Source: Gammaproteobacteria bacterium
Lineage (GTDB): Bacteria > Pseudomonadota > Gammaproteobacteria > Steroidobacterales > Woeseiaceae
Length of the DNA stretch: 58,124 nucleotides
Assembly (NCBI GenBank): GCA_009937525.1
Contig: JAACFE010000005.1
Coordinates: forward strand, 1 to 58,124
Direction: 5' to 3'
Positions within the stretch are counted from its first letter, which is position 1; every line of letters begins with the position of its first letter. Shown one piece after another: positions 22,191 to 49,510 of this stretch. A program made the translations under genes and the position numbers. The notes beneath the pieces are model-generated. The model was not told the origin of the DNA and ran no database searches. It saw nothing but the letters and a program-made list of their open reading frames with translations.

Positions 22191-22316
22191 GGCAATTGTC
22201 GAGGCTCACGCTGGAACGCCGCGGAATTTTCATCCCTTGACTGATCTCCAATCTGGCCCAATGATTGCTTCCCAGCTCAGCACCACCGCCCGGCGTCATC
22301 GATAGCGCAACCAGAC

Positions 22317-23603
22317 TTGCTAAGAGCCCGACAAAAAATTGGAAAGTACCGGATCACCGGCCGCATCGCCTCCGGGCCCCTCGCGGACGTGTACCGCGCA
22401 TACGATACGATCCAGAAGCGGCGTGTGGCCCTCAAGATACCGAAGGCAGACACGCACACAGGACACGAGGAATTCCTGCACGAGGTCCAGGTCGCGACGA
22501 AGCTGCAGCATCCGAATATCCTGGCGGTTCTCAATGCGAGCTACATCGACGGGCACTTCGTGATAGCGATGGAACTCGGCGAGGAGTCACTCGCCGACCG
22601 GATCGAACGCCGTATTTCGACGGCGCGCGCGCTTGATCTCGCCGGTCAGGCGATCGCGGCACTGGCCCACGCGCACGAACACAAGATCATCCATTGCGAT
22701 ATCAAGCCCGAGAATTACATCCTGTTCCCGGGCAACCAGCTCAAGCTCTGCGACTTCGGATTCGCGAAACTCAGCCTGCGCACCCTGAAAGCGTCCGGCT
22801 CCGGCACGATCGATTACATCGCGCCGGAACAGGCCATGGGCCGGCCGAAATTCCAGTCCGACGTGTTCTCGCTGGGGTTGGTGCTCTACCGGCTGTTGTC
22901 GGGCAGACTGCCCGAGTGGCCGTTTGCCTGGCCAATGGTCGGCCACGAGCGACTGACCGCCAAAGTACGCCCGGAACTCGTCGAAATGTTGCGGAAGTCT
23001 ATCCAGCTCGACCCGGCGGATCGTTATCGTGATGCGGTGCAGATGATGTCGGCATTCGAGCAGCTGCAAAGCCATGCCCGGCGGCAGAAGCGATCCAGGG
23101 TCCGGGGCGATCGCAAGGTCGGCACGACATGGCGGCGCATGCAGTGGCGCGAATTCCAGCAGCAGTACAAAAAGGTCCTCGATTCCCGGCACCAGTGCCG
23201 GCACTGCGAGGGTCCCGTGTCCGAGAGCATGCAGGCCTGTCCCTGGTGTGGTTTCGACAATCCGGCACGCAGTTCGGGGTCATCCATGCCGTCGAGCTGC
23301 CCGCGATGCGAGCGCGGCGTCAAGAATGACTGGGACTACTGCCCCTGGTGTTACGGGCCCGGCTTCGTCGAGGAGACGACGCGTCGCTACCCGGACAAGC
23401 GCTATTCAACCCGATGCGGCAACAAGCGCTGCCGCGGACAACTGATGCCATTCATGCGCTACTGTCCGTGGTGCCGCATGAAGGTGCGGCAGCCGTGGAA
23501 ACTGCAGGGCAGCCGGCATCGCTGCAAGGCGTGTGGCTGGGGTATCGCGCGGGAATTCTGGAATTATTGCGCCTGGTGCAGGGAGCCGGTGAAGCGCGCC
23601 TGA
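22317..23603 (+). CDS. Ser/Thr protein kinase with C-terminal zinc ribbons
   Basis: Cytoplasmic kinase of 428 residues, first gene of the signalling array. The kinase domain spans about 9-250: a loose glycine loop (GRIASGPLADVY), Lys40 in VALKIPK, catalytic HCDIKPEN (a non-RD kinase, Cys in place of Arg), DFG at 147-149, and APEQ in the activation segment. After a basic linker come four zinc-ribbon-like Cys pairs of pairs at about 294-311, 328-345, 367-386 and 403-421, most containing CPWC or CAWC. The start is TTG without a clear ribosome site. The PP2C gene follows immediately. The ribbons probably bind partner proteins or nucleic acid. Confidence 0.88.
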   Translation: MLRARQKIGKYRITGRIASGPLADVYRAYDTIQKRRVALKIPKADTHTGHEEFLHEVQVATKLQHPNILAVLNASYIDGHFVIAMELGEESLADRIERRISTARALDLAGQAIAALAHAHEHKIIHCDIKPENYILFPGNQLKLCDFGFAKLSLRTLKASGSGTIDYIAPEQAMGRPKFQSDVFSLGLVLYRLLSGRLPEWPFAWPMVGHERLTAKVRPELVEMLRKSIQLDPADRYRDAVQMMSAFEQLQSHARRQKRSRVRGDRKVGTTWRRMQWREFQQQYKKVLDSRHQCRHCEGPVSESMQACPWCGFDNPARSSGSSMPSSCPRCERGVKNDWDYCPWCYGPGFVEETTRRYPDKRYSTRCGNKRCRGQLMPFMRYCPWCRMKVRQPWKLQGSRHRCKACGWGIAREFWNYCAWCREPVKRA

Positions 23604-23623
23604 CGGCGCGTCCGGGTAGCGTC

Positions 23624-24472
23624 GTGGCGAATCACATAGACGGCCTCCTCGTACTCGACGGTGCGTTCAAACCGGACAGCCAGTCGGCGGAAGCCGGCGG
23701 CGGCCTGGTGGTGGCATTCACCGAGCGCGCCCCGGACAAGGACACGGAAAACGAGGATACGGTCGCCGTAATCCCGTGGGGTCCGGAGTCGGTCGTGCTC
23801 GTGATCGCCGACGGTGCCGGCGGCCTTCCGGCCGGGAAACGGGCGTCGCTGACCGCGGTCTCGTCGCTGGTCGAGGCGCTGTCCGTCGCGATGTCCGAAA
23901 CCGTCGTGCTGCGCACCGCGATTCTCGATGGCATCGAAGCGGCGAACGAGGCTGTCCAGCGCCTGGCGAACGGCTCTGCAACGACACTGACCGTTGTCGC
24001 GATCGAAGGACAGACCGCGCGCTCCTACCAGATCGGCGACTCGGAGGCATTGGTCGTCGGCCAGCGCGGCCGGATCAAATTGCAGACGACGGCGCATTCG
24101 CCCACCGGTTTCGCCGTCGAGGCGGGATTCCTCGACGAACGTGAGGCTCTGCACCATGCCGAGAGGCACCTGGTGTCCAATTTCCTCGGCACCAGCGACA
24201 TGAGCATCGATATCGGTGCGCCCGTCGAAATGCGTCCGATGGACACCGTCCTCCTGGCGAGCGACGGGCTGATGGACAACGTGCATCTCGCTGAAATCAT
24301 CGAGCATATTCGCAAGGGACCGGCCGAAGCCGCCGTGAATTCCGTCGTCGAACTCGCGCGCAGGCGCATGCGCCTGGACAACGGCAGGGAACCGTCGAAA
24401 CCCGACGATCTGTCACTGATCGTTTTCAGAAAACAACGCAAAGCCGGCCGAAATTCCACCGGCACGCCGTAG
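23624..24472 (+). CDS. PP2C-family Ser/Thr phosphatase
   Basis: Metal-dependent phosphatase of about 282 residues, the natural counterpart of the kinase 20 bases upstream. PP2C metal ligands are visible: ENEDTVAVI (motif 1), VIADGAGGLPAGKRAS (motif 2, DGxGG), SATTLTVVAI, QIGDSEALVV, LLASDGLMDNV, and PDDLSLIVF near the end (in place of the usual DNxT). I place the start at a GTG at 23624. A GTG at 23576, overlapping the kinase, is also open, and the frame extends back further without family resemblance. It should reverse kinase action on shared targets. Confidence 0.85.
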   Translation: MANHIDGLLVLDGAFKPDSQSAEAGGGLVVAFTERAPDKDTENEDTVAVIPWGPESVVLVIADGAGGLPAGKRASLTAVSSLVEALSVAMSETVVLRTAILDGIEAANEAVQRLANGSATTLTVVAIEGQTARSYQIGDSEALVVGQRGRIKLQTTAHSPTGFAVEAGFLDEREALHHAERHLVSNFLGTSDMSIDIGAPVEMRPMDTVLLASDGLMDNVHLAEIIEHIRKGPAEAAVNSVVELARRRMRLDNGREPSKPDDLSLIVFRKQRKAGRNSTGTP

Positions 24473-24748
24473 AAGCATCTCGGTCTCGGGCATAAACTTC
24501 TGCCAAATCATGTGCTTGTGGCGTCGCCGTTTGCAAGGGAGCCGAGCTGGACGGGACTATTGATTGACTATTGGCCGCGTATTATCGTCACAGGGTACCG
24601 GCGAGACGCTCGCCGACTCGGCCAGCGCCCGGATTCCGATGGAACTCCGGCCTGTGTTTAGCGCTCAAAACAAGGCGTACCGGTCGTTCCATGTCATCGG
24701 GACGAAACAGGCCGGGCCTCCAAGCTCGCCATCGAGAGGCACGAGCAT
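24473..24748. other. 276-base gap between phosphatase and lipoprotein genes
   Basis: This is the largest gap inside the signalling array. Short open frames here (for example from 24564) have no ribosome site and no recognisable product. An A/T-rich patch around 24559-24590 contains TTGACT and TATTAT, spaced only 10 bases apart, so no standard promoter can be claimed. A second promoter driving the lipoprotein-to-vWA part is plausible but unproven. Confidence 0.35.
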
Positions 24749-25891
24749 ATGAACCGCAATCAGTCAGGGATATCACTGTCACGCTGGGCCGGAACGGGCC
24801 TGGTCATCTTCGCCGCAACGCTGTTTGTCGCCGGCTGCAAGTCATCGGCGGTGATCCAGCCGCCCAGCAGCGGCATTCCCACGCCGCCGTCGGGCGGCGC
24901 GCCGTCGTCAGGCGGTTCGTCGGGTGGTGGCTCGCAAAGTGGCGGCCAGCAGAGCGGCGAACAGGGCGGTGGCTCGCAGGGCGGCGGTTCTTCCGGTGGT
25001 GAATCGTCCGGCGGCGGTTCGTCGGGCGGCGGTTCTTCCGGCGGCAGTGAGTCGCCGAGCGCGGGCACATCGGGCGGCAGTTCCGGCCAGTCCGGGAGCG
25101 TCGGCAGCGTGCCGCAGGTCGAATTCCCGATGCCGGGCGGCGCGCCGGGGATGGGCGGCAGTACGGCCGGTGACGGTGCCGAGGGTGATGCCGGAGACGA
25201 AGGCGGCGACGGCGACGGGCAGAGCGCGAGCGACTGCGGAGACACGGGCCCGTTGCCCGGCGGCGTAGGCGGCATGGGCCAGGCCGGCGAGTGCCTCGGA
25301 GGCGGAGCGTCCGCGAGCGAGTCCGCCGAGGCCGCCGGAGGCGGCGCCGAGGCGGCGATGGAAGGTGGCGGCGGGGGCGCGTCCGGCGAAGGCGCAGCAG
25401 GCGGTGCCGCGGGCGGTTCCGAGGGCGCAACGGGAACCGGCGGCGCGGGCAGCGCGGGCCAGTTTCCTACCGAGTCCGATGCTGAACGCGCAGAGAGGCT
25501 GGGTCGCGAACTTGACGAGTCGCTCGGCGGTTTCGACGAGGTCCTGAGCGAGGAGCAGAGCGAAATCGCGTCGGTCGGACGCAATATGGAAGGTTTCGGG
25601 GGCACCGGCGGTTCCAGTGGCGGAGCCGGCGGCATCAGCCTCGGCGAGCAGGCGGCAGGCGGCTCGGGTGCGGGAACGGTGGCCGTGGCGAATCAGCCCC
25701 AGGCGCAGCGCGAATCGCCCGTTGCCGGCCTCAGCCAGGAAGAGATTCGTGAGCGGACGCCGGACGACATTCCGGTCATGGTCGACGACGACATCATCGC
25801 GCGGCAGCTTCGCGAAGCGGCACTGGCGGAGGAAGACCCGGAACTGCGTGAGCGTCTGTGGGAAGAGTACCGTAAGTACAACGGGATTTAA
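24749..25891 (+). CDS. Gly/Ser-rich lipoprotein of the signalling array
   Basis: Protein of 380 residues with a signal peptide ending in a lipobox (LFVAGC, lipidated Cys at about residue 30). A long low-complexity Gly/Ser tract (about 40-240) follows, with repeated SGGGS and SGG units and acidic patches, then a charged helical C-terminus ending ERLWEEYRKYNGI. Membrane-anchored, periplasm-facing or surface-exposed. The low-complexity tract looks like a flexible tether of some 200 residues that could span the periplasm. The C-terminal helical part (VDDDIIARQLREAALAEED) is probably the functional end. No known family recognised. Confidence 0.75.
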   Translation: MNRNQSGISLSRWAGTGLVIFAATLFVAGCKSSAVIQPPSSGIPTPPSGGAPSSGGSSGGGSQSGGQQSGEQGGGSQGGGSSGGESSGGGSSGGGSSGGSESPSAGTSGGSSGQSGSVGSVPQVEFPMPGGAPGMGGSTAGDGAEGDAGDEGGDGDGQSASDCGDTGPLPGGVGGMGQAGECLGGGASASESAEAAGGGAEAAMEGGGGGASGEGAAGGAAGGSEGATGTGGAGSAGQFPTESDAERAERLGRELDESLGGFDEVLSEEQSEIASVGRNMEGFGGTGGSSGGAGGISLGEQAAGGSGAGTVAVANQPQAQRESPVAGLSQEEIRERTPDDIPVMVDDDIIARQLREAALAEEDPELRERLWEEYRKYNGI

Positions 25892-25900
25892 GGAGACGAT

Positions 25901-27142
25901 TTGCTCAAGATGAGGAGAGTATCGCCGCTTATCGCCATGGCCCTGTTTGCAGTCCAGGGCTGCACGGTCAACGAGGTAATCACTGCCGAAGAAACGGAGC
26001 TGGTCGTCGCCGATGACACGGTCGATGAGGCTCTGCTTCTCGATATCGGTGTTGTCGAATTCGACGGCGGCGTGCCGGATGACAACGATCCCTCGGATAC
26101 CCGGGTCTACGCGGAAATTCGCGGTGCCGAGTCGCGCTACCTGCCGTATCACCTGAAGACGACACTGCAGGGAACCGGTCACTGGGGTGCGGTGCGCGTG
26201 ATCCCGTCGCGCGAGGCGTTCACGGACGTCATCATCAGCGGCCGCATCGAAACATCGGATGGCGAGTACGTGAAGCTCGAGATATCCGTCGACGACGCCG
26301 CCGGCCGGCACTGGTACTCGGAAGAATACAGCGCGCAGACGGGCGTTTCCTCCTATTCCGAGCGGCGCGACCGGCGCCAGGACCCGTACCAGAAGGTGTT
26401 CAACGACATAGCGAATGATCTGCAGGCCTACGTTGCAAAGATGCCGCCCGAGGAGATCAAGCGGATCCGCCAGGTCTCCGAGCTGCAGTTCTTCGGTGAC
26501 ATGTCTCCGGGGCAGTTCGGCGGGCACCTGGCGGGCGACGACGACGGTATCGTGCAGGTCGTGCGGCTGCCCGCGGAAAACGACCCCGCCGTGGCGCGCC
26601 TGCGGCAGATCCGTGAGCGCGACCGGCTCGTCGTGGACACGCTCAACGAACACTACGCCAACTTCTATTACGGCATTTCCATTCCTTACAGCGCCTGGCG
26701 CAAGACTTCTCGCGAGGAGGCCATCAACTACCGCCAGGTGAAACGCTCGGCGACGCTGCAGACACTGATGGGCGTCGTTGTCCTTGCGGGTTCCCTGGCG
26801 GTTGAAACGGACAGCTCCAGTTCGTCGACCCGACGCATGCAGAGAAGCCTGCAGAGCATCGGTATCTCCCAGGGCATCGACCAGATATTCGCGGGTTTCT
26901 CGCGGCGCTCCGAGGCTTCACTGCATGTCGAAGCAATCAAGGAGCTGTCGGAATCGTTCGGGTCCGAAGCGGCGCCGATGGTGATCGACGTCGAAGGCCA
27001 GACCCGGCGCCTCACCGGTACGGCTGCGGCCCAGTACGAGAGCTGGCGTCGGTTGCTTCGTGAAATCTACGAGGCAGAGACCGGCTTCCCGACGTCCATC
27101 GAGGTCGGCTCGCCGTCTCGCGAGGGTGAACCGACTGGATGA
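25901..27142 (+). CDS. second lipoprotein of the signalling array
   Basis: Protein of 413 residues with a lipoprotein signal (LFAVQGC). The N-terminal domain reads IGVVEFDGGVP and VIISGRIETSDGEYVKLEI, which recalls the beta-alpha fold of CsgG/TolB N-terminal domains; this is weak resemblance only. The remainder is helical, with a hydrophobic segment near 290-305 (LMGVVVLAGSLAVE). AGGAG lies six bases before the TTG at 25901; an ATG at 25910 is the alternative. It overlaps the next kinase by 4 bases (ATGA), so they are co-translated. Confidence 0.75.
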   Translation: MLKMRRVSPLIAMALFAVQGCTVNEVITAEETELVVADDTVDEALLLDIGVVEFDGGVPDDNDPSDTRVYAEIRGAESRYLPYHLKTTLQGTGHWGAVRVIPSREAFTDVIISGRIETSDGEYVKLEISVDDAAGRHWYSEEYSAQTGVSSYSERRDRRQDPYQKVFNDIANDLQAYVAKMPPEEIKRIRQVSELQFFGDMSPGQFGGHLAGDDDGIVQVVRLPAENDPAVARLRQIRERDRLVVDTLNEHYANFYYGISIPYSAWRKTSREEAINYRQVKRSATLQTLMGVVVLAGSLAVETDSSSSSTRRMQRSLQSIGISQGIDQIFAGFSRRSEASLHVEAIKELSESFGSEAAPMVIDVEGQTRRLTGTAAAQYESWRRLLREIYEAETGFPTSIEVGSPSREGEPTG

Positions 27143-29514
27143 GCGATCGAAAACCGGCGCGAGACCTGAGCGTTGGCAGCCGGCTCGCTAATCGGTACAC
27201 CTTATCCCGGCGCCTTGGCAGAGGAGGCGCGGCCGAGACATGGCTTGCGACGGACCGGATCACCGGTGCGTCGGTCGCGCTCAAAATCCTCGTGGACGAT
27301 CGCGTCGGCCCCGACGCGCTGCGCCGCGAATGGCAACTCGCGATTCGCCTTATGCACGCACATATCGTGCGCGCGTTCGAATTTCACGAGGACGAGCGCG
27401 CTTTCTACAGCCTGCAGTTCATCGACGGGCCAGACATCAGTGTGCTTGCCGGCGCGGCACCTGCGGAATCGCTGCCCCCGGTCGCGCTGATTGCCGACGC
27501 GCTGCGCTATGCGCACGCCAAAGGCGTCGTACACCGCGACCTCAAAGCCACAAACATCCTCCTCGATCATAACGGCGCGCCATGCCTGATCGATTTCGGA
27601 GTATCCGCGACCCGTGGTCAGGACCCCGGCGGTGGTTCGCTGATCGCCGCCAGCCCCCAGCAGCTCTCGGGTGCGGCGCCAGATCCTGCCGACGACATTT
27701 TTGCGCTCGGCGGACTCATCTACGAACTGGTCAGCGGCCGTTCGCCGTGGAGTTCCGCGGACACGGCAGGCGACATTCTCAACCGGGAGCCACCGCCGCT
27801 CGAGGCGGCCGACGGTTCCGCGGTGCCGGCGGGCCTGAAGGCGCTGGTTGCCTCGATGCTGGACAAGGACGCGTCCAGCAGGCCCGACGCGGAATCCGTC
27901 GCGTCCAGGTTATCGGAGTTGGGCTATGCTCCGGCATCTGCCGCGAAGCGCTTCGTTGCCTCGGCGGGCGGTGTTCGCGACGAGATCATTCAGTCGCAGG
28001 ACGCCATCCGTCCCGTGCAGCGCGCACCGCGGGCCGCGGCCTCGACCAGCGGCACGACATCCAGCGGCGTGAGCCCCCGGACGCTCGGTATCGGCCTTGC
28101 CGTATTGCTGCTGCTCCTGCTCGGCGTCGTGTTCCTGTTGCCGAGAACGGTCGACAAGCCGGCTACCGTGCCGGCGGTGGACGCCGATGCGCAGGACGAA
28201 GCGTCGCAGCCGGTGACAAGTGGGGACAAGAGGCCTGCCGTCGATTTCAGCGAGAACATCGACGACCTCAGTGGCCGTGATCAGCGTGTGCAGGACCGGG
28301 CATCCACCGAAGACGTGCTGGGCGAATTGCTCGCAAAGATGGATACGCTGGAAAGCCGCGCCGTTCGGCGTTGGGGCGGGTTGCGGTTCGCGCGCGCGCA
28401 GGCCGTGTATGCCGAAGGTGACGAGGCCTACCTGGCCCGCGATTACGCCACGGCATCGCAGAAATACCGCGAAGCCATCGAGATCGTCGAACCGTTGCTG
28501 GACGAGGTCGACAGGGTCTTCGAGTCGACCTACGCCGAGGCGCGCGCGGCCCTGGAAGCCGCCGATCCGGTCGAGGCCGTGCGCCTTTTCGACCTGGCGG
28601 CAGCAATCAGCCCGGGGCACCGGGGCGCGCAGGCCGGTCTGGCGCGGGCGCGGAACCTGGAATCCGTCCTCTCGCTGATGGACCAGGGCCTCGCGCACGA
28701 GAAGGACCTGGAACTACAGGCAGCACGACAAAGCTTCGAGAGGGCTGCCGAGCTCGATCCGGAATGGGAGCCGGCACAGATTGCGCTGCAACGCGTGCGC
28801 GGCACGATCACTCAGATGGAGTTCGATCTGCGCATGACGGAGGGAATTTCAGCGCTGGCGGAGGGCGATTTCCTGGCGGCCCGTGCAGCGTTCCGGATGG
28901 CGCAGAAGCTCATGCCGGGGTCGCCCGAGCCGGCGGACGGCCTGCTGCAGGTGGACCAGGGTATCCGGCTGCAGGAAATCTCGTCGCTGGAGCAAAAGGC
29001 GCAACAACACGAACAGGCTGAGGAGTGGAGCGATGCGACGGCGACCTACGAGCGCATCCTCGAGCTCGATTCCAACCTGGCATTCGCCCAGGACGGTATC
29101 GCGCGGACACGCCAGATGGAGGCGCTGCACGACATGCTCGACCGGTTCATTGCCGAGCCGGACAGCCTGAGCCGTCAGTCGAACATGCAGTCAGCCACCA
29201 GGCTTCTGCTCGACATCACTCGCATGGAAAGCATCGGGCCGCGACTCGCGGACCGCCGCGACGAGCTGTCCAGACTGTTGAAGCGGGCCGCAACGCCGCT
29301 GACGGTGAAACTCGTTTCCGACAGCCAGACCGACGTTTCGATTTATAAAGTTGGTAAACTCGGCAGCTTCGACGAGCATGAGCTCAGCCTGCGGCCGGGA
29401 ACCTACGTCGCGGTCGGCGTGCGGCCGGGATACCGCGACGTACGTCTGGAGTTCCGCGTGGCACCGGAAATTGACATGCAGCCGATCGTCGTTCGCTGCG
29501 AGGAACCAATTTGA
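27139..29514 (+). CDS. transmembrane Ser/Thr protein kinase with repeat-rich C-terminal domain
   Basis: Protein of 791 residues. The cytoplasmic kinase domain (about 18-265) has GRGGAAETW, Lys49 in VALKIL, HRDLKATN (an RD kinase) and DFGVS; the usual APE reads SPQ. After a Ser/Thr/Ala linker comes one membrane helix at about 316-335. The outer part (about 380-730) is helical with repeated A-x-D/E-L-D-P/S patterns typical of TPR-like repeats (RAAELDPEWEPA, RILELDSNLAFA). A small beta domain ends the protein, resembling a PEGA domain. This is a receptor-kinase layout: periplasmic sensing, cytoplasmic phosphorylation. Confidence 0.88.
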   Translation: MSDRKPARDLSVGSRLANRYTLSRRLGRGGAAETWLATDRITGASVALKILVDDRVGPDALRREWQLAIRLMHAHIVRAFEFHEDERAFYSLQFIDGPDISVLAGAAPAESLPPVALIADALRYAHAKGVVHRDLKATNILLDHNGAPCLIDFGVSATRGQDPGGGSLIAASPQQLSGAAPDPADDIFALGGLIYELVSGRSPWSSADTAGDILNREPPPLEAADGSAVPAGLKALVASMLDKDASSRPDAESVASRLSELGYAPASAAKRFVASAGGVRDEIIQSQDAIRPVQRAPRAAASTSGTTSSGVSPRTLGIGLAVLLLLLLGVVFLLPRTVDKPATVPAVDADAQDEASQPVTSGDKRPAVDFSENIDDLSGRDQRVQDRASTEDVLGELLAKMDTLESRAVRRWGGLRFARAQAVYAEGDEAYLARDYATASQKYREAIEIVEPLLDEVDRVFESTYAEARAALEAADPVEAVRLFDLAAAISPGHRGAQAGLARARNLESVLSLMDQGLAHEKDLELQAARQSFERAAELDPEWEPAQIALQRVRGTITQMEFDLRMTEGISALAEGDFLAARAAFRMAQKLMPGSPEPADGLLQVDQGIRLQEISSLEQKAQQHEQAEEWSDATATYERILELDSNLAFAQDGIARTRQMEALHDMLDRFIAEPDSLSRQSNMQSATRLLLDITRMESIGPRLADRRDELSRLLKRAATPLTVKLVSDSQTDVSIYKVGKLGSFDEHELSLRPGTYVAVGVRPGYRDVRLEFRVAPEIDMQPIVVRCEEPI

Positions 29515-31937
29515 GTCTGATCCTATTCATCAGGGATGTTGAAGGCGAACGACCAATAGAAGCGGAACGTTTGCCGCTGCGCGTCGGTACCGGCAGCGAC
29601 TGCGATCTGCGACTGCCCGGCCCGGGCGGCGGGCCGGTCATGATGCTCGACGTGCTCGACGACGTGCCCTTCGTACAGCCCGTCGGCCGCGACGGGTCGA
29701 TGGCAATCAACGGCGAGCCGCTGACCGCCAGCCGGCGATTGCGGGACGGCGACGAATTGCATTATTTCGGCAGCCGCGTCGTCATCCACCTGGACGAGGC
29801 GCGCCTGACGCTGGAAGTCCTCCTCGAGGACAGCGCCTATGTGACGAAGCCGCCCGAGCTGGGCGATACCGGCGAACGGCCCGCCGAGGAAACCATCGCG
29901 CCGACAGCGTTCCGGCGAGCGTCGGAGATGCCGCAGGCGGCCGCGGAAAGGACGGGACACGGCACCCTGCGCTGGATCATCGGTGCCGCGCTGACGGTGC
30001 TGGTCGTGATTTCGTTTCTGCTGTTCACCGCCAAGTCGGTCAAGTTCGAAGTGACGCCGGGGGAGCCCGATTCGTTCTCCGTGAGCGGTGGCTGGTTCCG
30101 CATGCCGCTCGGCGATCGCGTGCTGCTGCGCAAGGGCAGCTATACGGTGCAGGTGTCGCAACAGGGCTATTTCGACGTGAGTCGGAACTTCGAGGTAGGC
30201 GACGAACAGAATGTCATCATCGATATCGAGATGCGCAAGCTGCCGGGGCACGTTACCGTCGTCACGAATCCGCCGACGGATGCGGTCGTCACGATCAATG
30301 AGAGCGAAGTCGGGCCCGCGCCGTTCGGGCCGATCGAATTGTTGCCGGGCGAGCACAGCGTCAGCGTCCGCGCCCGGCGATTTCTGCCTTATGGCGGCGT
30401 CATCAACGTCCCCGGGCTCGGCAGGCACGAACAACTCAGCGTGCAACTGGTCCCGCGTTGGTCCGAAGTCGAAATCACCTCCGAGCCGCCCGGGGCGCGC
30501 ATATACGCCGGTGAACAGGAGGTCGGCGAGACCCCGGCGACTATCGAGCTGATGGAGGGCACGCACCAGGTCAGCGTCGTGCGGGACGGCTACAGTGCCT
30601 GGGACGGTACGTTGGTCGCGGAGCCCAATACGCAAGTTGCGCTGCCGGTCATCCGGCTGCAGCCGGCCAATGCCAGGCTGCGCGTCAACTCGATCCCGCG
30701 CGGTGCCAACGTCACGGTGAACGGCCGCTACCGCGGCCAGTCGCCGATTTCGCTCGATCTTGCACCGGACGTCAACTACGAGATCGGCCTTTCGAAGGCC
30801 GGTTACGGCATGACGAGTCGCAAGGTGCGCCTCGAGGCAGCGGCGAGCGACTCGATTACCGTCGACCTTACGGCGAGGACCGGGACGCTGACGGTTAACG
30901 TCGAACCGGCCGATGCTACCGTCTACGTGGATGGCCAGGCCCGTGGCACAGGCAGCACGACACTGCGCCTTAGTTCTGCACCGCACCGCATCGAGGTGCG
31001 CAAGGCCGGTTACGAATCCTGGTCGCGAACCGTGACGCCGCGGCCGGGCTATCCCCAGACACTGTCCGCACGCCTGCGTTCGCAGGAAGAGATCGAGCGC
31101 GAATCGGTTGCGCTGGAGCGCCAGACGGCAGTCGGCCAGGTATTGCGTCTGGTCGAGCCCGGCACCTTTACACTGGGCTCGTCGCGCAGCGAGCAGGGGC
31201 GCAGGGCAAACGAGGTCATCGTCCCGGTCAGGCTGAGCGGGTCGTTCCTCATCGGCGTGAAGGAAGTGAGCAACCGGGAGTTTTCGCAATTCCGGGCCAA
31301 TCATGATTCGGGTGCCGATATCCACCCGTCGATGGCCGGCGACAATAATCCCGTGGCCAACGTGACCTGGGCGGATGCCGTACAGTACTGCAACTGGCTC
31401 AGCGCACGCGAAGGCCTGACGCCGGTCTACAAGGAGGAGTTCGGCGAATGGATTGCCATACGCCCATTACCGGACGGTTATCGGCTGCCGACCGAGGCGG
31501 AATGGGCCTGGGCCATTCGTTATCAGGGCGGCAATGGCGCGCTGAAGTTTTCCTGGGGCAAGGACTGGCCGCCCCGTCGGGACGCGGGCAATTACGCCGA
31601 CAAGTCCGCGGCTGATCTCGTTCCCACGATCATTCCCACGTATGACGACGGTTTCGCGTCGACCGCGGAAGGCGGCAGGTTTCCCGCCAATGCCGTAGGA
31701 ATATTCGACGGCGCCGGAAACGTGGCCGAATGGGTGAACGATTACTACACCGTACCCACTCCCGGCGTTAGCTCGCCGCTGGTCGATCCGCTCGGTCCCG
31801 AGCGCGGGCAGTCTTACGTGATCCGGGGCTCCAGCTGGCGTCACGCTTCGCCCACCGAGTTGCGACTGTCTTTCCGCGACTATGGCAAGGACCCGCGGCC
31901 GGACGTCGGCTTCCGCGTGGCGCGCAATGCCGACTGA
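29511..31937 (+). CDS. FHA-like/TM/PEGA/SUMF1-like membrane protein
   Basis: Protein of 808 residues. The N-terminal 100 residues resemble an FHA-type beta domain (LRVGTGSDCDLRLPG). One membrane helix lies at about 154-174. Four to five PEGA repeats follow (about 180-525), each with a P-x-G/D-A-x-V/I-x-V/I core, for example SEPPGARIYAGEQEVGETP and NSIPRGANVTVNGRYRGQSP. The C-terminal domain (about 545-805) is of the SUMF1/FGE type: GYRLPTEAEWAWA, GNVAEWVND, VIRGSSWRHA, GFRVAR. The catalytic cysteines of true formylglycine enzymes are absent. The start TTG overlaps the kinase stop by 4 bases. The outer part may bind ligand or cell wall. Confidence 0.85.
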   Translation: MSLILFIRDVEGERPIEAERLPLRVGTGSDCDLRLPGPGGGPVMMLDVLDDVPFVQPVGRDGSMAINGEPLTASRRLRDGDELHYFGSRVVIHLDEARLTLEVLLEDSAYVTKPPELGDTGERPAEETIAPTAFRRASEMPQAAAERTGHGTLRWIIGAALTVLVVISFLLFTAKSVKFEVTPGEPDSFSVSGGWFRMPLGDRVLLRKGSYTVQVSQQGYFDVSRNFEVGDEQNVIIDIEMRKLPGHVTVVTNPPTDAVVTINESEVGPAPFGPIELLPGEHSVSVRARRFLPYGGVINVPGLGRHEQLSVQLVPRWSEVEITSEPPGARIYAGEQEVGETPATIELMEGTHQVSVVRDGYSAWDGTLVAEPNTQVALPVIRLQPANARLRVNSIPRGANVTVNGRYRGQSPISLDLAPDVNYEIGLSKAGYGMTSRKVRLEAAASDSITVDLTARTGTLTVNVEPADATVYVDGQARGTGSTTLRLSSAPHRIEVRKAGYESWSRTVTPRPGYPQTLSARLRSQEEIERESVALERQTAVGQVLRLVEPGTFTLGSSRSEQGRRANEVIVPVRLSGSFLIGVKEVSNREFSQFRANHDSGADIHPSMAGDNNPVANVTWADAVQYCNWLSAREGLTPVYKEEFGEWIAIRPLPDGYRLPTEAEWAWAIRYQGGNGALKFSWGKDWPPRRDAGNYADKSAADLVPTIIPTYDDGFASTAEGGRFPANAVGIFDGAGNVAEWVNDYYTVPTPGVSSPLVDPLGPERGQSYVIRGSSWRHASPTELRLSFRDYGKDPRPDVGFRVARNAD

Positions 31938-31998
31938 ATTTCATGCGACAATTGCGCTCTGCGGCGGTCAAAGCACGAGGAAAGGACAGGGATCAACG

Positions 31999-32244
31999 AT
32001 GCGTCGTTATGTGTTGACCATTCTGCTGTTGATGGCGGGCGCCGTCGCGTGGGCGCAGGACAGTGCCCCGCAGGGCGAGGACGAGACCCGGGAACCCGGG
32101 GAGACGGCGGAAGAAGTGGCTGACGAGCAGGATGAGGATCTCGACCTCGATGAAGAAAGCTACCTGGACGCCGAGGAAGAGGATTTCGTGCCGACCGAAG
32201 ACATACCTGCCGACCAGGCAATTCCGTTTCCCACCGACATCTAG
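31999..32244 (+). CDS. small acidic exported protein
   Basis: Protein of 81 residues: a clear signal peptide (MRRYVLTILLLMAGAVAWAQ, cleaved after AWA) followed by about 60 residues almost wholly made of Asp, Glu and small residues. It has no recognisable domain and is probably disordered in the periplasm. AGGACAGGG upstream of the ATG at 31999 supports this start. It lies between the PEGA/SUMF1-like gene and the TolQ-like gene on the same strand. The acidic tail could bind cations or a basic partner. Confidence 0.7.
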   Translation: MRRYVLTILLLMAGAVAWAQDSAPQGEDETREPGETAEEVADEQDEDLDLDEESYLDAEEEDFVPTEDIPADQAIPFPTDI

Positions 32245-32279
32245 GCCCGACCCATATTCAAGACTGACGTTGCTGACTT

Positions 32280-33080
32280 ATGAACAAGAGAGACATTCCT
32301 GTTGAGTTCGTGTACCAGATGTTCGCGCTGATCATCGCGATCATCGTCGTGCACGCGTTCTACGTTTCAGTTGTGCGGCCGAATGCGGCGCAGATCATCG
32401 AGGAACAGAACGCGGCGGCTGCCGCCGATCTCGGTTATGTCCGCGAGCGACGCATCCCGGTCCTGATCAAGGACCTGGAACAGGAAGCCTGTTTCATCCT
32501 CATGTTCTGGGCACTCGCGATCATGGGGTACAAGGCCGTCAAGATCACGCGCGAGCGCCGTCTGCTCGACGTCGATCTCGTCCCTGTCGCCGAGGGCATG
32601 CGAATATTGCCCGAGGATTCGCGGGAATTCGCCCGCCAGGTGCAGCAGTTGCCGGGCGAGCAGCAACAGATGCTGTTGCCGCGGGCGCTGCTGAATGCTC
32701 TCCGGCGCTTCAATTCGACGCATAGCATCCAGGACGTCTCGAGCAGTACGAATACTATCTGCGAGTCCGAAGCCGAGCGACTGGAATCGGAGCTGTCGAT
32801 GATCCGCTACATCTCCTGGGCGATTCCCTCGATCGGATTTATCGGCACGGTGCGCGGTATCGGTGAAGCGCTGGCGCAGGCCGACAAGGCGGTCCAGGGC
32901 GATATCGCCGGCGTTACCCAGAGCCTGGGCGTCGCGTTCAACTCGACCTTCATCGCGCTCCTGATCAGCATCTTCCTGATGTTCCTGGTGTACCAGCTCC
33001 AGCTCCTGCAGGAACGGCTCGTGTTTGACACGCAGGCGTACTGCGACGACAAGCTGATCCGACACATGAGAGCGGACTGA
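32280..33080 (+). CDS. MotA/TolQ/ExbB-type proton channel protein
   Basis: Membrane protein of 266 residues. Helices at about 10-30 and 70-86, then the conserved channel pair at about 175-200 (SWAIPSIGFIGTVRGIGEAL, the MotA_ExbB signature) and 218-242 (FNSTFIALLISIFLMFLVYQL). A cytoplasmic domain of about 85 residues lies between helices 2 and 3, as in TolQ/ExbB. Such proteins form rings that pass protons to drive an ExbD/TolR/MotB partner. No tonB, tolR or motB is nearby; the two vWA proteins downstream carry the likely partner helix. Confidence 0.87.
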   Translation: MNKRDIPVEFVYQMFALIIAIIVVHAFYVSVVRPNAAQIIEEQNAAAAADLGYVRERRIPVLIKDLEQEACFILMFWALAIMGYKAVKITRERRLLDVDLVPVAEGMRILPEDSREFARQVQQLPGEQQQMLLPRALLNALRRFNSTHSIQDVSSSTNTICESEAERLESELSMIRYISWAIPSIGFIGTVRGIGEALAQADKAVQGDIAGVTQSLGVAFNSTFIALLISIFLMFLVYQLQLLQERLVFDTQAYCDDKLIRHMRAD

Positions 33081-33099
33081 TCTCCGCGCGGAGCGACCC

Positions 33100-34467
33100 G
33101 TGTCCTTGCTCGCAGCACACATCAACGACGCCGGGATTTCCGTGCTCAGTAACGAGCGCCTGCTTTACCGGGAACCGGGGTTCGCGCTGCTCGACGATGA
33201 CGAACTCGCGACCGGCTCGAAGGCATTCGAAAACGCGCGCATACAACCGCGAAGAATACAGAATCGATTCTGGTCGGAGCTGACGACCGACGCATTGCCC
33301 GATCGACGATTTCAGCACCTGAGCGCTGCGGACCTCGTCAGCCGGCAGCTCGAACAGATCTGGCGGGGCGCTGCCGCTTCGGGCGACCGCCTGGTCGTCG
33401 CCGTGCCGGCCTACATGACGGGCGATAATCTCGGCCTGTTTCTCGGCATTGCGCACGAACTCGGCGTGCCCGTCGTCGGCCTGGTCGATGCCGCCGTCGC
33501 GGCGACGCGCCGCGAATACCGGGGTGCGGTGCCGGTGCACGTGGATCTCAGCCTGCACGCGACAAGCCTTTCGCGCCTGAAGCAGAGCGGCCAAGTACAG
33601 CTGGACCGCAGCGAGGTCATCGATAACAGCGGCATGCTGGCGCTGTACGACGCCTGGATCCGGGTGATCTCGGATGCCTTCGTAAAGCAGTCGCGATTCG
33701 ACCCGCTGCATACGGCGGAAACAGAGCAGCTGCTGCTCGATCGACTCGGCGAGTGGCTTGCGAGCGCGTCGGCCAATGACACGGTGGCGCTCGAGATCGA
33801 ATACCGGGGCATTGCACACGGCGCGGAAATCGAATCCCTGCACCTGATCTCGGCGGCGGCGCCGGTATACCAGCGCATCGCGAGCCAGCTGCGGGCCATC
33901 TACCGGGCGGAGGAAACGCCGGCGATCCAGCTGAGCGATCGTGCCGCACGCATGCCGGGCCTCGCGGACATGCTTGCCGCGCGCGTCGGCGGCGACATCT
34001 TCCTCCTGGAACCCGGCGCTACCGCGCGCGGATTACTGACTCGCTGCCGCGACATGCAGCGTGGCGACAGCGGCGTGACGCTGATCCGGCAGTTGCCGTG
34101 GGACCAGTCGCCTGTGACCATCGAGCGAGACGAAACGCCCGTCGTGGCGGGGCAACCGACTCACCTGCTGTTCGGCAATACGGCCTACGCGATCGGCCGT
34201 CGGGCGCTGGTGATGGGCTCGCAGCCTGCGGGCGGCGAGCGCTGGATAGACCTCGGCGGCGACATGCCGGGCATATCCCGGCGGCATTGCTCCATCGAGC
34301 GCAAGAGCGGCCAGTGCATCGTCCAGGACTTCAGCCGCTACGGCACCTTCCTCAACGGACACAAGATCGATGGGTCTGCAGTCCTCCAGGTCGGCGACCT
34401 CATCCGCCTGGGCAGCCCAGGCCACGAGTTTCGAGTGATCATGACGGAGCCCGACGATGGCTCGTAA
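33100..34467 (+). CDS. actin/Hsp70-like N-domain with C-terminal FHA domain
   Basis: Protein of 455 residues. The N-terminal part (about 1-300) has alternating strands and helices with segments RLVVAVPAYMTGDNL and LGVPVVGLVDAAVAAT that resemble the actin-like ATPase fold of Hsp70/FtsA-type proteins; the phosphate loops are not clear, so nucleotide binding is uncertain. The C-terminal FHA domain (about 365-450) is convincing: GISRRHCSIE and DFSRYGTFLNG hold the phosphothreonine-binding Arg, Ser, His and Asn. It should read the phosphorylation state set by the array's kinases and phosphatase. The start is GTG. It overlaps the vWA gene by 11 bases. Confidence 0.8.
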   Translation: MSLLAAHINDAGISVLSNERLLYREPGFALLDDDELATGSKAFENARIQPRRIQNRFWSELTTDALPDRRFQHLSAADLVSRQLEQIWRGAAASGDRLVVAVPAYMTGDNLGLFLGIAHELGVPVVGLVDAAVAATRREYRGAVPVHVDLSLHATSLSRLKQSGQVQLDRSEVIDNSGMLALYDAWIRVISDAFVKQSRFDPLHTAETEQLLLDRLGEWLASASANDTVALEIEYRGIAHGAEIESLHLISAAAPVYQRIASQLRAIYRAEETPAIQLSDRAARMPGLADMLAARVGGDIFLLEPGATARGLLTRCRDMQRGDSGVTLIRQLPWDQSPVTIERDETPVVAGQPTHLLFGNTAYAIGRRALVMGSQPAGGERWIDLGGDMPGISRRHCSIERKSGQCIVQDFSRYGTFLNGHKIDGSAVLQVGDLIRLGSPGHEFRVIMTEPDDGS

Positions 34468-35554
34468 GCGCCGGCCATTCGAGGTATTCAGCATGTCGTT
34501 TCTCGACTGCATGAGCTGCGGGTTCGGCGCCGTGATCCTGTTCTTCATGATCATCAATGCCCAGGTCAACGAGATCACGGAGGAGGACCCGACGAAGCTG
34601 ATGGCCGAGACCAAGCGCCTGGAAGTCGAAATACTTGAAGGCCGTAAGAACCTCGTGTTTGCCAAGAATACAATCGAGACTCTGGAAGACGAAAAACAGA
34701 CTGCAGAAGGCAAGATTGCCGAGATCATTGCCCTGATCAAGGAATTGCGCGAAGAACTCGCCGAGTACGATGATGAAACGCTTGCCAGGATCGAGCGTAT
34801 CGAGAAGCTGCAAAGCGACATCAAGTCACTCGAGGAAGAGGTGAAGCGCCTGCTGGCGCTCAAGGCCGAAGAGGAGAACCTGGGCGCGAGGATCCGGGAA
34901 TTCAAGGGCGAAGGCGACCGCCAGTACCTGACGGGGCTCAAGCTCGGGGGCGACCGCACGCTGATACTCGTCGATCGTTCGGCGAGTATGCTGGACGACA
35001 CGATCGTCAATATCATCCGGCGGCGCAACATGTCGAAGGAGGACAAGCTGCGCGCCGTCAAGTGGCGCCAGGTCGTGGCCAGCGTCGACTGGCTCACTTC
35101 GCAATTCAAGCCGGGCAGCAAATTCCAGATCTACATGTTCAACAACGAAACCCAACCGGTCATCAAGGGCAGCGACGGCGTCTGGCTCGAGGCCGACGAT
35201 GCGACCAAGCTGGATGAAGCCATACGGGTGCTGCGCCGCACGCCGCCCGAGAACGGCACCAACCTGCGTGCCGCCTACGAGGTCGCCTCCAGGCTTACGC
35301 CGCGGCCCGACAATATCATCCTGCTCGTCGATGGTCTTCCGACGATGATGGAGTCCACCACCAACCGCAGGATGGTTACCGGCCGCGACCGCATGAGCAT
35401 GCACGGACGGTCGATCCGTGAACTGCCCAGCGGCATCCCGATCAACATACTGTTGTTCCCGATGGAGGGTGATTACGATGCCGCTATCGCATACTGGACG
35501 CTGGCTTACGGGTCCGGCGGGTCTTTCATGGCGGTGAGCCGGGACTGGCCGTAG
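34457..35554 (+). CDS. membrane-anchored vWA protein 1 with ExbD-like helix
   Basis: Protein of 365 residues. A basic N-terminus (MARKRRPFEVFS) precedes one membrane helix, SFLDCMSCGFGAVILFFMII, with an Asp at residue 17. A long coiled coil spans about 45-150. The vWA domain (about 165-360) has an intact MIDAS: DRSAS at 173-177, the Thr in NGTNLRAA, and the Asp in LLVDGLPT. Helix topology (basic side in) puts the vWA domain in the periplasm. The helix resembles the ExbD/TolR helix with its essential Asp, so it is a candidate partner for the TolQ-like protein. Confidence 0.85.
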   Translation: MARKRRPFEVFSMSFLDCMSCGFGAVILFFMIINAQVNEITEEDPTKLMAETKRLEVEILEGRKNLVFAKNTIETLEDEKQTAEGKIAEIIALIKELREELAEYDDETLARIERIEKLQSDIKSLEEEVKRLLALKAEEENLGARIREFKGEGDRQYLTGLKLGGDRTLILVDRSASMLDDTIVNIIRRRNMSKEDKLRAVKWRQVVASVDWLTSQFKPGSKFQIYMFNNETQPVIKGSDGVWLEADDATKLDEAIRVLRRTPPENGTNLRAAYEVASRLTPRPDNIILLVDGLPTMMESTTNRRMVTGRDRMSMHGRSIRELPSGIPINILLFPMEGDYDAAIAYWTLAYGSGGSFMAVSRDWP

Positions 35555-35569
35555 CAGGTTGGAGTATCT

Positions 35570-36568
35570 ATGAGCAAGCGACGTCGAAACGTTGATGCAT
35601 TCAGTCTGTCCTTCCTGGACTGTATCTGCTGCGGATTCGGCGCGATCATCCTGTTACTCGTGCTGTCCAAGATCTACGAGCCGATGATCATCGAGAAGAC
35701 CCAGGATGACCTTGAGTCACTGATCGCGTTGTTGCAGCAGGAGCTTTTCGATATCCGCGGCGAGACGGCAATCTTGAACCGTGAACTCGTGGATGTGCGC
35801 GAGCAGACCTCGGACACCAAGATCCAGCTCGCCCGCCTGCAGCAGGAACTCAGTACGGTCAAGGGTCAGTATGATGCGTCGCAGGAGGAGTCGGAGTCGA
35901 CCATCGACGAGGGGGCACTGGCCTCTGCCAAGCAGCGCCTGACCGAGGAGATGCGCCGCCTGCAGCCGTATTACAAGCGAGCGGACGACGATGCAGTTGC
36001 CGGCATACCCGTGGACAGCGAGTACATCATTTTCATCATCGATACGTCCGGCAGTATGCAGCAGTACAACTGGGACCGGGTGCAGCAGAAGCTCAACGAG
36101 ACGCTGGACGTCTATCCGCAGGTTCAAGGCCTGCAGATCATGAACGACAACGGCAATTACATGTTCTCGCAATATGCGGGCAAGTGGATCCCCGACACGC
36201 CGGGTCGCCGCGAGGCAATCAAGAACACGATGCGCCTGTGGCGCCCGTTCAGCGACAGTAATCCCGTCGACGGCATCATTTACGCGATCAGCACCTACTG
36301 GTCGCCGGACAAGAAGATCAGCATCTACGTGTTTGGTGATGAATTCAGCGGACGCTCGGTCGAAAACGTGGTTCGGCAGGTGGATGCCGTTAATCGCGCG
36401 GACGCGCAGGGCAACCGCATGGTACGCATACACGCGGTTGGCTTTCCGTTCCTGTTCCGTGGCAGCGGTGACATCCCGCCGACCGCCCACAAGTTCTCGC
36501 AGCTGATGCGCGTGCTCTGCGAGCGCAACGGCGGCACCTTCGTCGCGCTGACTCACTGGGATCGCTGA
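35570..36568 (+). CDS. membrane-anchored vWA protein 2 with ExbD-like helix
   Basis: Protein of 332 residues, paralogue of the preceding gene. Basic N-terminus MSKRRRNVDAFSL, then SFLDCICCGFGAIILLLVL with Asp17 and Cys18/Cys21 at exactly the same positions as in vWA protein 1. A coiled coil spans about 42-130. The vWA domain (about 150-325) carries MIDAS DTSGS (158-162), ending GGTFVALTHWDR, which parallels the GGSFMAVSRDWP end of protein 1. The two may form a heteromer. It starts 15 bases after protein 1 and is followed by a terminator that ends the array. Confidence 0.85.
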   Translation: MSKRRRNVDAFSLSFLDCICCGFGAIILLLVLSKIYEPMIIEKTQDDLESLIALLQQELFDIRGETAILNRELVDVREQTSDTKIQLARLQQELSTVKGQYDASQEESESTIDEGALASAKQRLTEEMRRLQPYYKRADDDAVAGIPVDSEYIIFIIDTSGSMQQYNWDRVQQKLNETLDVYPQVQGLQIMNDNGNYMFSQYAGKWIPDTPGRREAIKNTMRLWRPFSDSNPVDGIIYAISTYWSPDKKISIYVFGDEFSGRSVENVVRQVDAVNRADAQGNRMVRIHAVGFPFLFRGSGDIPPTAHKFSQLMRVLCERNGGTFVALTHWDR

Positions 36569-36616: not shown

Positions 36617-36640
36617 GGTGGTCCAGGGCCCACCGTTTTT
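36617..36640 (+). terminator. Rho-independent terminator after the vWA genes
   Basis: Hairpin GGTGGTCC-AG-GGCCCACC (36617-36634, one mismatch) is followed by G and five T residues. It lies 49 bases after the second vWA stop and before the OmpA-family gene. Confidence 0.65.
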
Positions 36641-36702: not shown

Positions 36703-37428
36703 ATGCGTAAGACGATTTCAGCAATAGTGGCTCTCAGCCTCGTCACCATGGCGCCGTTTGCCGCACAGGCAGCTGCATCGAAACAGGAACGCATCGGTGT
36801 AGGTGCCGGCGCGATCGTAGGTGCGGCGGCCGGCGGTCCGATCGGGCTGGTTGTCGGTGCAGCCGTCGGTGCATACCTCGGCGACAATATGTACCGGAAG
36901 AATGACGAAATCGAGACGCTAGCGGCGAAGCTCGACGCATCCAGGTCCGAGGTTGTGCGCCTGGAGGGCGATATAGACAGGATGGACCGCGATCTCGACA
37001 CGCTGAGCGCCGAGCTGCAGCGCATGCAGCGCTTTTCGAATCAGGACATGGTCGGCTTGCTGGAGGCGGGCATCGTCATGGACCTGCTCTTCCGAACGGA
37101 CGAGGCGGTGCTTGCCGATACTACCGGCATCCGGCTGCACGAACTCGCGACCATACTGGCCGGCATGCCCGGAATCCAGGTGCAGCTCGACGGTTTCGCC
37201 GATGAACGCGGCGATGAGCAATATAACCAGAGGCTCTCCGAGCAGCGCGTCAACTTCATTCGCGACCAACTGACAGCGGCCGGTGTCAATGACTCGCGGA
37301 TCTCCGCTGCGGCACACGGCGAGTCGCCGGCGCAGGACGATACCGTCGACAGCTATGCCCTCGAGCGGCGCGTTAGCCTGACTCTGTATACGGAGGATGC
37401 GACGACCGTAGCCGCCAACCCCGAATAG
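36703..37428 (+). CDS. OmpA-family protein with glycine zipper
   Basis: Exported protein of 241 residues. Signal peptide MRKTISAIVALSLVTMAPFA (cleaved near AQA), glycine zipper GAGAIVGAAAGGPIGLVVG (about 37-60), coiled coil (about 68-108), then a C-terminal OmpA/MotB peptidoglycan-binding domain with LDGFADERGDEQYNQRLSEQR and ERRVSLTLY. The zipper-plus-OmpA layout recalls PdsO-type proteins of proteobacterial sortase systems, but no sortase is seen here. It could anchor the upstream machine to the wall, but a terminator separates them. A strong AGGAGGAG ribosome site precedes the ATG. Confidence 0.88.
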   Translation: MRKTISAIVALSLVTMAPFAAQAAASKQERIGVGAGAIVGAAAGGPIGLVVGAAVGAYLGDNMYRKNDEIETLAAKLDASRSEVVRLEGDIDRMDRDLDTLSAELQRMQRFSNQDMVGLLEAGIVMDLLFRTDEAVLADTTGIRLHELATILAGMPGIQVQLDGFADERGDEQYNQRLSEQRVNFIRDQLTAAGVNDSRISAAAHGESPAQDDTVDSYALERRVSLTLYTEDATTVAANPE

Positions 37429-37470: not shown

Positions 37471-37498
37471 GCCGGCCCTCCGGGGCCGGCTCTTTTTG
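37471..37498 (+). terminator. Rho-independent terminator after the OmpA-family gene
   Basis: Perfect 8-bp stem GCCGGCCC / GGGCCGGC with loop TCCG (37471-37490), followed by TCTTTTTG. Strong canonical terminator, 42 bases after the OmpA-family stop. Confidence 0.9.
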
Positions 37499-49395: not shown

Positions 49396-49510
49396 CAATT
49401 CCCTTTGTGAAATCGTTCCGGCTGCAAATTCACTCGGTCGAAACGATCTCCGTCGGAAGGCGACAGTATATCCTCGCGCAGCATATTACGTTGGTGCTCG
49501 ACACGATAGA

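Follow-up and report, generated by a model that had tools for sequence, protein, structure and literature searches.

A nine-gene cassette for a candidate TolQ/vWA envelope motor in Woeseiaceae and other bacteria, with a recurrent link to Ser/Thr phosphorylation

RESULTS

An eleven-gene array in a Woeseiaceae genome

The window analysed here is a stretch of 58,124 nt from the genome of a marine Woeseiaceae bacterium (assembly GCA_009937525.1, contig JAACFE010000005.1), and the element under study is an array of eleven genes, nine of which form a cassette found in several phyla, with a TolQ-like channel subunit and two von Willebrand factor A (vWA) proteins among its products. All eleven open reading frames (ORFs) are present on the + strand, as a preliminary description of this DNA had reported.

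The array begins with two accessory genes. K1 (22317..23603) encodes a Ser/Thr kinase with a C-terminal double zinc ribbon (Pfam Pkinase, 5.9e-37), and the next gene (23348..24472) a PP2C phosphatase (PP2C_2, 2.7e-15) whose true start is uncertain: the longest ORF overlaps K1 by 256 nt, thus the start is probably later, e.g., at the GTG at 23624. The cassette follows with two lipoproteins, Lp1 (24749..25891), which is Ser/Gly-rich, has a VAGC lipobox and was assigned from its sequence and conserved position, and Lp2 (25901..27142), with a VQGC lipobox, a predicted N-domain fold of the TolB-N/PelC/CsgG/FlgT type and a long helical part. K2 (27139..29514) is the TPR protein of the cassette, here preceded by a cytoplasmic Ser/Thr kinase domain (Pkinase, 3.3e-29, plus TPR); hydropathy places a transmembrane (TM) helix at residues 309-340, before the TPR repeats and a C-terminal domain. 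The PEGA/FGE protein (29511..31937) has an FHA-like cytoplasmic N-terminus, a TM helix at 151-179, PEGA repeats (3.4e-49) and an FGE-like domain (FGE-sulfatase, 5.2e-36). A small acidic protein with a signal-peptide-like N-terminus, identified by sequence and conserved position, comes next (31999..32244), 31999 being its more likely start.

The channel subunit (32280..33080; MotA_ExbB, 1.3e-14) is followed by an Hsp70/actin-fold domain fused to a C-terminal FHA domain (33100..34467; FHA, 6.6e-13). Last come vWA1 (34457..35554; VWA_2, 1.3e-6) and vWA2 (35570..36568), each with a TolR-like TM helix, a coiled coil and a vWA domain with a metal ion-dependent adhesion site (MIDAS). The VWA matches of vWA2 are all below the cut-off (best 18.6 bits); the checked MIDAS positions are nevertheless conserved in its family. 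The overlaps of 4 to 11 bases given in the preliminary description were found between Lp2 and K2 (27139-27142, 4 nt), K2 and PEGA/FGE (29511-29514, 4 nt), and the Hsp70-like/FHA gene and vWA1 (34457-34467, 11 nt). Its calls of two kinases, a PP2C, a channel and two membrane vWA proteins also agree with these results.

The nine-gene order is conserved across phyla

To collect loci, a collection of named genomes was scanned with two vWA2 peptide patterns, one of which includes an Asp of the N-terminal helix; at least 594 matches were obtained, and among those listed 566 were confirmed and 80 loci kept. A further 29 loci came from other searches. Gene order was counted in the loci with at least 9 kb upstream of vWA2 (76 of 109, with the 33 shorter ones excluded), corresponding to 72 distinct loci after de-duplication; L048 and L049 were excluded from the cassette counts.

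By profile annotation, the order is Lp1, Lp2, TPR protein (with or without kinase), PEGA/FGE, acidic protein, TolQ, Hsp70-like/FHA, vWA1 and vWA2. All nine genes were found in 63 of the 76 long loci and 73 were collinear; after de-duplication, the values were 59/72 and 69/72. Lp2, TPR, PEGA/FGE, TolQ, Hsp70-like/FHA and vWA1 occurred all together in 65 of the distinct loci, while vWA1 was found in 72/72 and TolQ in 71/72, figures to be read knowing that most of these loci were selected via vWA2. The profiles of Lp1 and of the acidic protein are low-complexity, and their matches outside the cassette amounted to 1/73 and 1/88, respectively. The repetition of the nine-gene order in 69 distinct loci is beyond chance.

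By record name, the loci belong to Pseudomonadota, Thermodesulfobacteriota (Desulfobacterota), Myxococcota, Acidobacteriota and Kiritimatiellota, names that carry a binning risk because most records are metagenome-assembled. Outside the 72, a Phycisphaerales contig (L085) shows this same order for eight of the genes, the acidic one being undetected. The non-collinear loci are L114, an ORF-start artefact, L082 (named Myxococcales), which consists of two divergent halves, and L041, where TolQ comes last. Over-long ORF starts account for the apparent exchange of the two vWA genes in L085 and for the apparent irregularity of Lp1/Lp2 in L114.

The vWA proteins as candidate inner subunits of the channel

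Both vWA proteins begin with one hydrophobic helix of the form F-x-L-S-F-L-D-x-x-x-C-G-F-G-A. Its Asp17 is present in all 106 distinct rows of the vWA2 alignment, partly by construction for the 80 named loci, since one of the fetching patterns contains it; it is also present in 29/29 loci picked without the Asp motif. In vWA1, Asp17 occurs in 97 of 99 distinct rows, the other two being gapped, and in 28/28 loci picked without the motif. The vWA1 and TolQ counts, like the 29 loci from other searches, are free of this selection bias. On the channel side, T190 and T223 of TolQ are invariant (89/89 distinct rows); in four other ExbB-type proteins of the window genome, the aligned positions are the GTV and the second Thr. 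The checked MIDAS positions are near-invariant in both vWA families.

We then considered the usual partner of such channels. An ExbD profile was built from seven of the eight ExbD matches of the window genome (the eighth, L133, was unused); it was positive in 6/6 control loci, largely by construction, as six of its seven seeds come from those places. Over 111 cassette loci, it gave no match in 109. The match in L062 is a separate TolQ-ExbD unit on the opposite strand, and that in L154 (19.7 bits) falls on the acidic protein of the cassette itself and covers just the part behind the Asp position. In the window genome, the other six MotA/ExbB matches adjoin ExbD matches; the cassette TolQ does not. 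The Asp helix, the Thr residues in TolQ and the lack of an ExbD gene in the cassette make replacement of TolR/ExbD by the vWA proteins the simplest reading: in a motor of the 5:2 type, vWA1 and vWA2 would probably serve as the inner stator subunits.

This core had already been predicted, independently, in 2025 (PMC12204202, Mol Biol Evol). As presented in section 8 and the Fig. 4 legend, that work predicts a TPH-vWA/TolQ motor family in which paired vWA genes are tightly linked to tolQ, without tolR/exbD; the vWA helix bears an Asp, AF3 models place it inside the pentamer, and the function of the family is given as unknown. The described features (a tolQ-like gene with a heterologous vWA pair, no tolR/exbD, the helix Asp and the channel Thr) match those of our cassette. 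The reference proteins of that family come from Idiomarina; among our loci, no Idiomarina sequence was identified. The lipoproteins, the TPR, PEGA/FGE and Hsp70-like/FHA proteins and the optional kinase are additional, and section 8 and the Fig. 4 legend name none of them. We found nothing on this rest of the set in open-access texts; Fig. 4c and the supplement of PMC12204202, outside this scope, may show neighbours. The preliminary claim that no described system has this set therefore stands for the whole set within the open-access literature, and falls for its TolQ and vWA-pair core.

The same paper offers a different role for vWA proteins. For a first vWA family, it predicts TolA/TonB-like transducers located outside the ring, and by analogy the inner subunit of our channel could be encoded elsewhere. 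That first family, as described there, has an SHLS-motif helix and adjoins tolR-like genes; the cassette helix instead has its invariant Asp, and the cassette includes no ExbD gene. We regard a position outside the ring as quite unlikely.

Kinases and the FHA site

The stand-alone K1 and PP2C genes are Woeseiaceae additions to the cassette. We compared 20 further regions from the window's family, the name Woeseiaceae being taken from close protein matches. A kinase is fused to the TPR protein in every one; K1 and PP2C lie directly upstream in 13, PP2C lies further upstream in 5, and neither was found in 2, in one of which the contig ends at Lp1. Outside the family, K1/PP2C were seen upstream in none of eight loci (2.3 to 8.1 kb read, only 2.3 kb for L039), and the kinase fusion in one of the eight. 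In 20 of 66 distinct loci, the TPR protein has no kinase domain. The kinases were therefore rejected as core members. The cross-genome co-occurrence expected in the preliminary description thus holds for TolQ, both vWA proteins, the lipoproteins, PEGA/FGE and FHA, all found together in unrelated genomes; the kinases and the phosphatase are not defining.

We then compared the presence of the kinase with the state of the FHA site, scored as intact when 3-4 of S393, R394, H396 and N419 were kept. The set of 66 excludes loci without a detected TPR, TolQ, vWA1 or Hsp70-like/FHA gene, as well as short kinase-free TPR genes. The site is intact in 40 of 46 loci with the fused kinase and in 4 of 20 without it (raw Fisher p 2.6e-7); on the tree, the kinase trait changes only four times, and the comparison of independent pairs is not significant (of 4 pairs, 1.3 changed the same way, 0 the opposite way and 2.7 were unchanged). 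Together with the six kinase-bearing loci that have a degenerate site and the four kinase-free loci that have an intact one, this dependence on few changes weighs against a phosphorylation-linked motor.

These exceptions, the loci without a kinase domain and the absence of K1/PP2C upstream of the eight loci outside the family fit a different view, in which the motor is real and the kinase, PP2C and FHA are passengers: phosphorylation would control something else and the Hsp70-like/FHA protein would be a plain scaffold. Against this, the kinase is fused in frame to a cassette protein and the FHA site is kept in most kinase-bearing loci. Moreover, a kinase, PP2C and FHA stand again beside TolQ/vWA in L176, and FHA and PP2C in L048, two loci of the second cassette described below. 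We judge the passenger view less probable than a phosphorylation-linked motor, and still a serious possibility.

A second, divergent cassette

A few Gammaproteobacteria carry a second, divergent TolQ/vWA-type cassette, the parts of which vary by locus (L176:3078-12952, L048:9719-15167 and L175:5563-10174). In genome G035 (L176), it comprises FHA, TolQ and PP2C, a pair of trypsin-FHA proteins, one vWA protein, a kinase-PEGA protein and one protein without assignment; the vWA protein matches VWA_2 just below the cut-off and its helix reads INIFNVSALDLFASALGAFILI. In G090 (L048), nine proteins were scanned: they included TolQ, FHA, PP2C, a vWA protein and trypsin-FHA, and none was recognised as a kinase. 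In G032 (L175), a kinase (Pfam) and, by eye, PP2C-like and trypsin-like genes adjoin the helix protein, and no TolQ was recognised. The head of the helix protein is a vWA domain in L176 and L048 and has no Pfam match in L175. Both Thr are kept in the TolQ of L176 and L048. A search for this helix type across 350 gammaproteobacterial genomes (E 1e-8) was positive in 5, one of these matches being a fragment at a contig end. The second cassette of L176 again joins TolQ, vWA, FHA, PP2C and kinase, which strengthens the tie to phosphorylation.

Lipoprotein, scaffold and adaptor candidates

The predicted fold of the Lp2 N-domain resembles the TolB N-domain; the Lp2 alignment gave no match to PDB sequences at E 1. 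The domain called actin-like in the preliminary description best matches the nucleotide-binding domain of Hsp70/DnaK, and the FHA call in the same protein stands. Against the TagH-type FHA model of the type VI secretion FHA/kinase pathway, the score was 22.9 bits, below the cut-off of 120.25.

The PEGA/FGE protein has two forms, a long one with the FHA-like cytoplasmic N-terminus and a short one starting almost at the membrane helix. The PEGA and SUMF1-like calls of the preliminary description were recovered; the FHA-like N-terminus has no Pfam FHA call and is missing in the short forms. Catalytic FGE carries a C-terminal cysteine pair. In the FGE-like domain, 20 aligned columns were compared over 82 rows, and Cys is not one of the residues (up to seven per column) given as commonest; the window's own sequence has no Cys there either. 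A catalytic FGE was therefore rejected.

Distribution, flanking genes and the defence hypothesis

A vWA2 search at E 1e-3 was positive in 17 of the 229 gammaproteobacterial genomes searched. With the TolQ profile, 57 of 61 genomes of the window's family were positive, including 37/37 good ones, as were 16 of 349 genomes of the phylum sample at E 1e-20, 13 of which come from one other family.

Flanking genes vary between lineages; in the same-genus locus L038, the flanks on both sides match those of the window. Downstream of vWA2, on the + strand, lies a PdsO-like, OmpA-family gene (36703..37428), a Woeseiaceae neighbour that is probably a separate unit. An OmpA gene adjoins the cassette in 26/81 loci, and in 16/20 further regions of the window's family. 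The window copy scored 135.4 bits against the sortase-associated PdsO model, under the cut-off of 152.2, and its N-terminal stretch looks signal-peptide-like by eye. Separately, a single sortase match was found in the window genome, on a different contig (G000:C55:2914-3264). Clustering of 69 loci gave three repeated extras with an envelope look: one lipoprotein in 10 loci, a second in 7, and an M48 peptidase, also in 7. They occur in loci that include L042, L081, L105, L107, L113, L119 and L127 and are located downstream of vWA2, except for one lipoprotein copy upstream in L039. The remaining repeated neighbours are metabolic or other genes common to close relatives. Inference of function from neighbours was dropped, as the flanks vary by lineage.

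These data bear on the hypothesis, contained in the preliminary description, of an anti-phage or stress-defence system. MotA-type channels, vWA proteins, kinases and PP2C occur in Zorya-like or TerY-P-like systems, and PADLOC gave generic kinase matches, a PP2C match of 27.5 bits and matches of 16-19 bits for both vWA proteins (LmuB). Zorya (ZorAB) has, like the cassette, a MotA-type channel with an Asp-bearing partner; the head of ZorB is OmpA, whereas vWA1 and vWA2 have vWA heads and no OmpA match in Pfam. TerY-P combines a soluble TerY-type vWA protein with kinase and PP2C, whereas the cassette vWA proteins have an N-terminal membrane helix of the channel-partner type. Lp1, Lp2, TolQ and the Hsp70-like/FHA protein had no PADLOC match (TolQ at 1e-3, the presence of ZorA models there being unchecked). 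The family-wide conservation of the channel and the lack of specific PADLOC matches make a defence role very improbable; the shared flanks in L038 and the recurrent OmpA neighbour point in the same direction.

A promoter-like site (22237-22265) and terminator-like sites (36617-36634 and 37471-37490) are compatible with a K1-to-vWA2 unit, and the number of such sites is no higher than in shuffled sequence. Rfam and tRNA scans gave zero matches. Elsewhere in the window, GC content is 53.5% at 48001-50000, versus 60.6-66.6% in the remaining 2-kb steps; minus-strand ORFs lie at 47387-48442 and 48433-49398.

DISCUSSION

The flagellum, Ton, Tol-Pal, gliding and type IX secretion all run on ion-driven 5:2 motors. 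We consider it rather probable, on the basis of conserved residues and predicted folds, that the cassette encodes a further one: a phosphorylation-linked, ion-driven trans-envelope TolQ/vWA motor acting on outer-membrane lipoproteins. TolQ-like subunits would form a ring through which ions, most likely protons, flow. In place of TolR/ExbD, vWA1 and vWA2, as a heterodimer or as homodimers, would insert their Asp-bearing N-terminal helices inside the ring. Ion flow would turn or flex these helices and so move the periplasmic coiled coils and vWA heads, the MIDAS sites of which may grip the periplasmic scaffolds of the PEGA/FGE and TPR proteins and, through them, the outer-membrane Lp1 and Lp2. 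The Hsp70-like/FHA protein could be the cytoplasmic adaptor. In Woeseiaceae-type lineages, the TPR-fused kinase, K1 and PP2C would set a phospho-threonine state that the FHA domain reads, thereby adjusting assembly or activity. Its likely purpose would be to organise or stabilise the outer membrane or cell surface by force. The preliminary description had proposed a phosphorylation-gated, proton-driven envelope complex. An ion-driven complex is still the best reading, with phosphorylation recurrently attached; the kinases and phosphatase are no longer among its defining parts.

Several results count against such a motor. One long locus (L043) has no detected TolQ, and the profile's closest PDB chain is weak (TolQ, E 0.069). 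Among the seven aligned ExbD proteins of the window genome, five have the Asp in a similar setting (e.g., NLTPMLDV) and two carry Asn, which shows that helices of this kind can lack the Asp. For Lp2, Foldseek gave a weak match at best (E 1.4e-3). Finally, the glycine-rich phosphate loop is an Hsp70 motif, and its absence from the consensus of the Hsp70-like domain makes ATP use by this domain doubtful.

Known envelope motors share parts of the set. Tol-Pal and Ton have a TolQ-type channel, and the Lp2 N-domain resembles that of TolB; however, the cassette lacks TolR/ExbD, and its Pfam calls include neither TolA/TonB nor a TolB propeller. The type IX motor (GldL/GldM with GldK/GldJ) also combines a proton motive force-driven motor with an FGE-fold protein, GldK; the cassette channel is instead TolQ-type and not GldL-type, and has vWA heads. 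A parallel in composition is the Agl-Glt gliding machinery of Myxococcus, for which PMC3169522, in the part considered here, describes one TolQ-like protein with two different inner subunits, TPR proteins, an FHA transmembrane protein and a lipoprotein. By this likeness, the cassette could be a surface motility or adhesion motor, its vWA heads moving against outer-membrane adhesion complexes. AglQ and AglS are, however, Pfam ExbD/TolR proteins, whereas vWA1 and vWA2 have vWA heads and no ExbD match in Pfam or with the ExbD profile; PEGA/FGE and Hsp70-like/FHA are additional, and neighbourhood listings contain no adhesin or outer-membrane barrel as a constant cassette member. We find a motility or adhesion role unlikely. 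As a separate observation, G000:C7 and G000:C147 each have one ExbB-type and two different ExbD genes, an Agl-like arrangement, and in each one ExbD has Asn replacing the channel Asp.

Returning to the phosphorylation-linked motor, a broader and more tentative proposal is that of a so far undescribed, phospho-regulated class, in which ion-driven TolQ/vWA stators would have their assembly or output controlled by Ser/Thr phosphorylation, via the Hsp70-like/FHA adaptor in the first cassette or via trypsin-FHA proteins in the second, and would act on a TolB/PelC-like lipoprotein assembly of the outer membrane. If this were true, the two divergent cassettes would share one phospho-switched motor logic.

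The nine-gene composition and the recurrent tie to Ser/Thr phosphorylation look new. A multi-phylum cassette with its own inner subunits, scaffold, lipoproteins and phosphorylation layer would provide a partner list for the orphan vWA motors predicted in 2025, making their role, and any phospho-control of them, directly testable.

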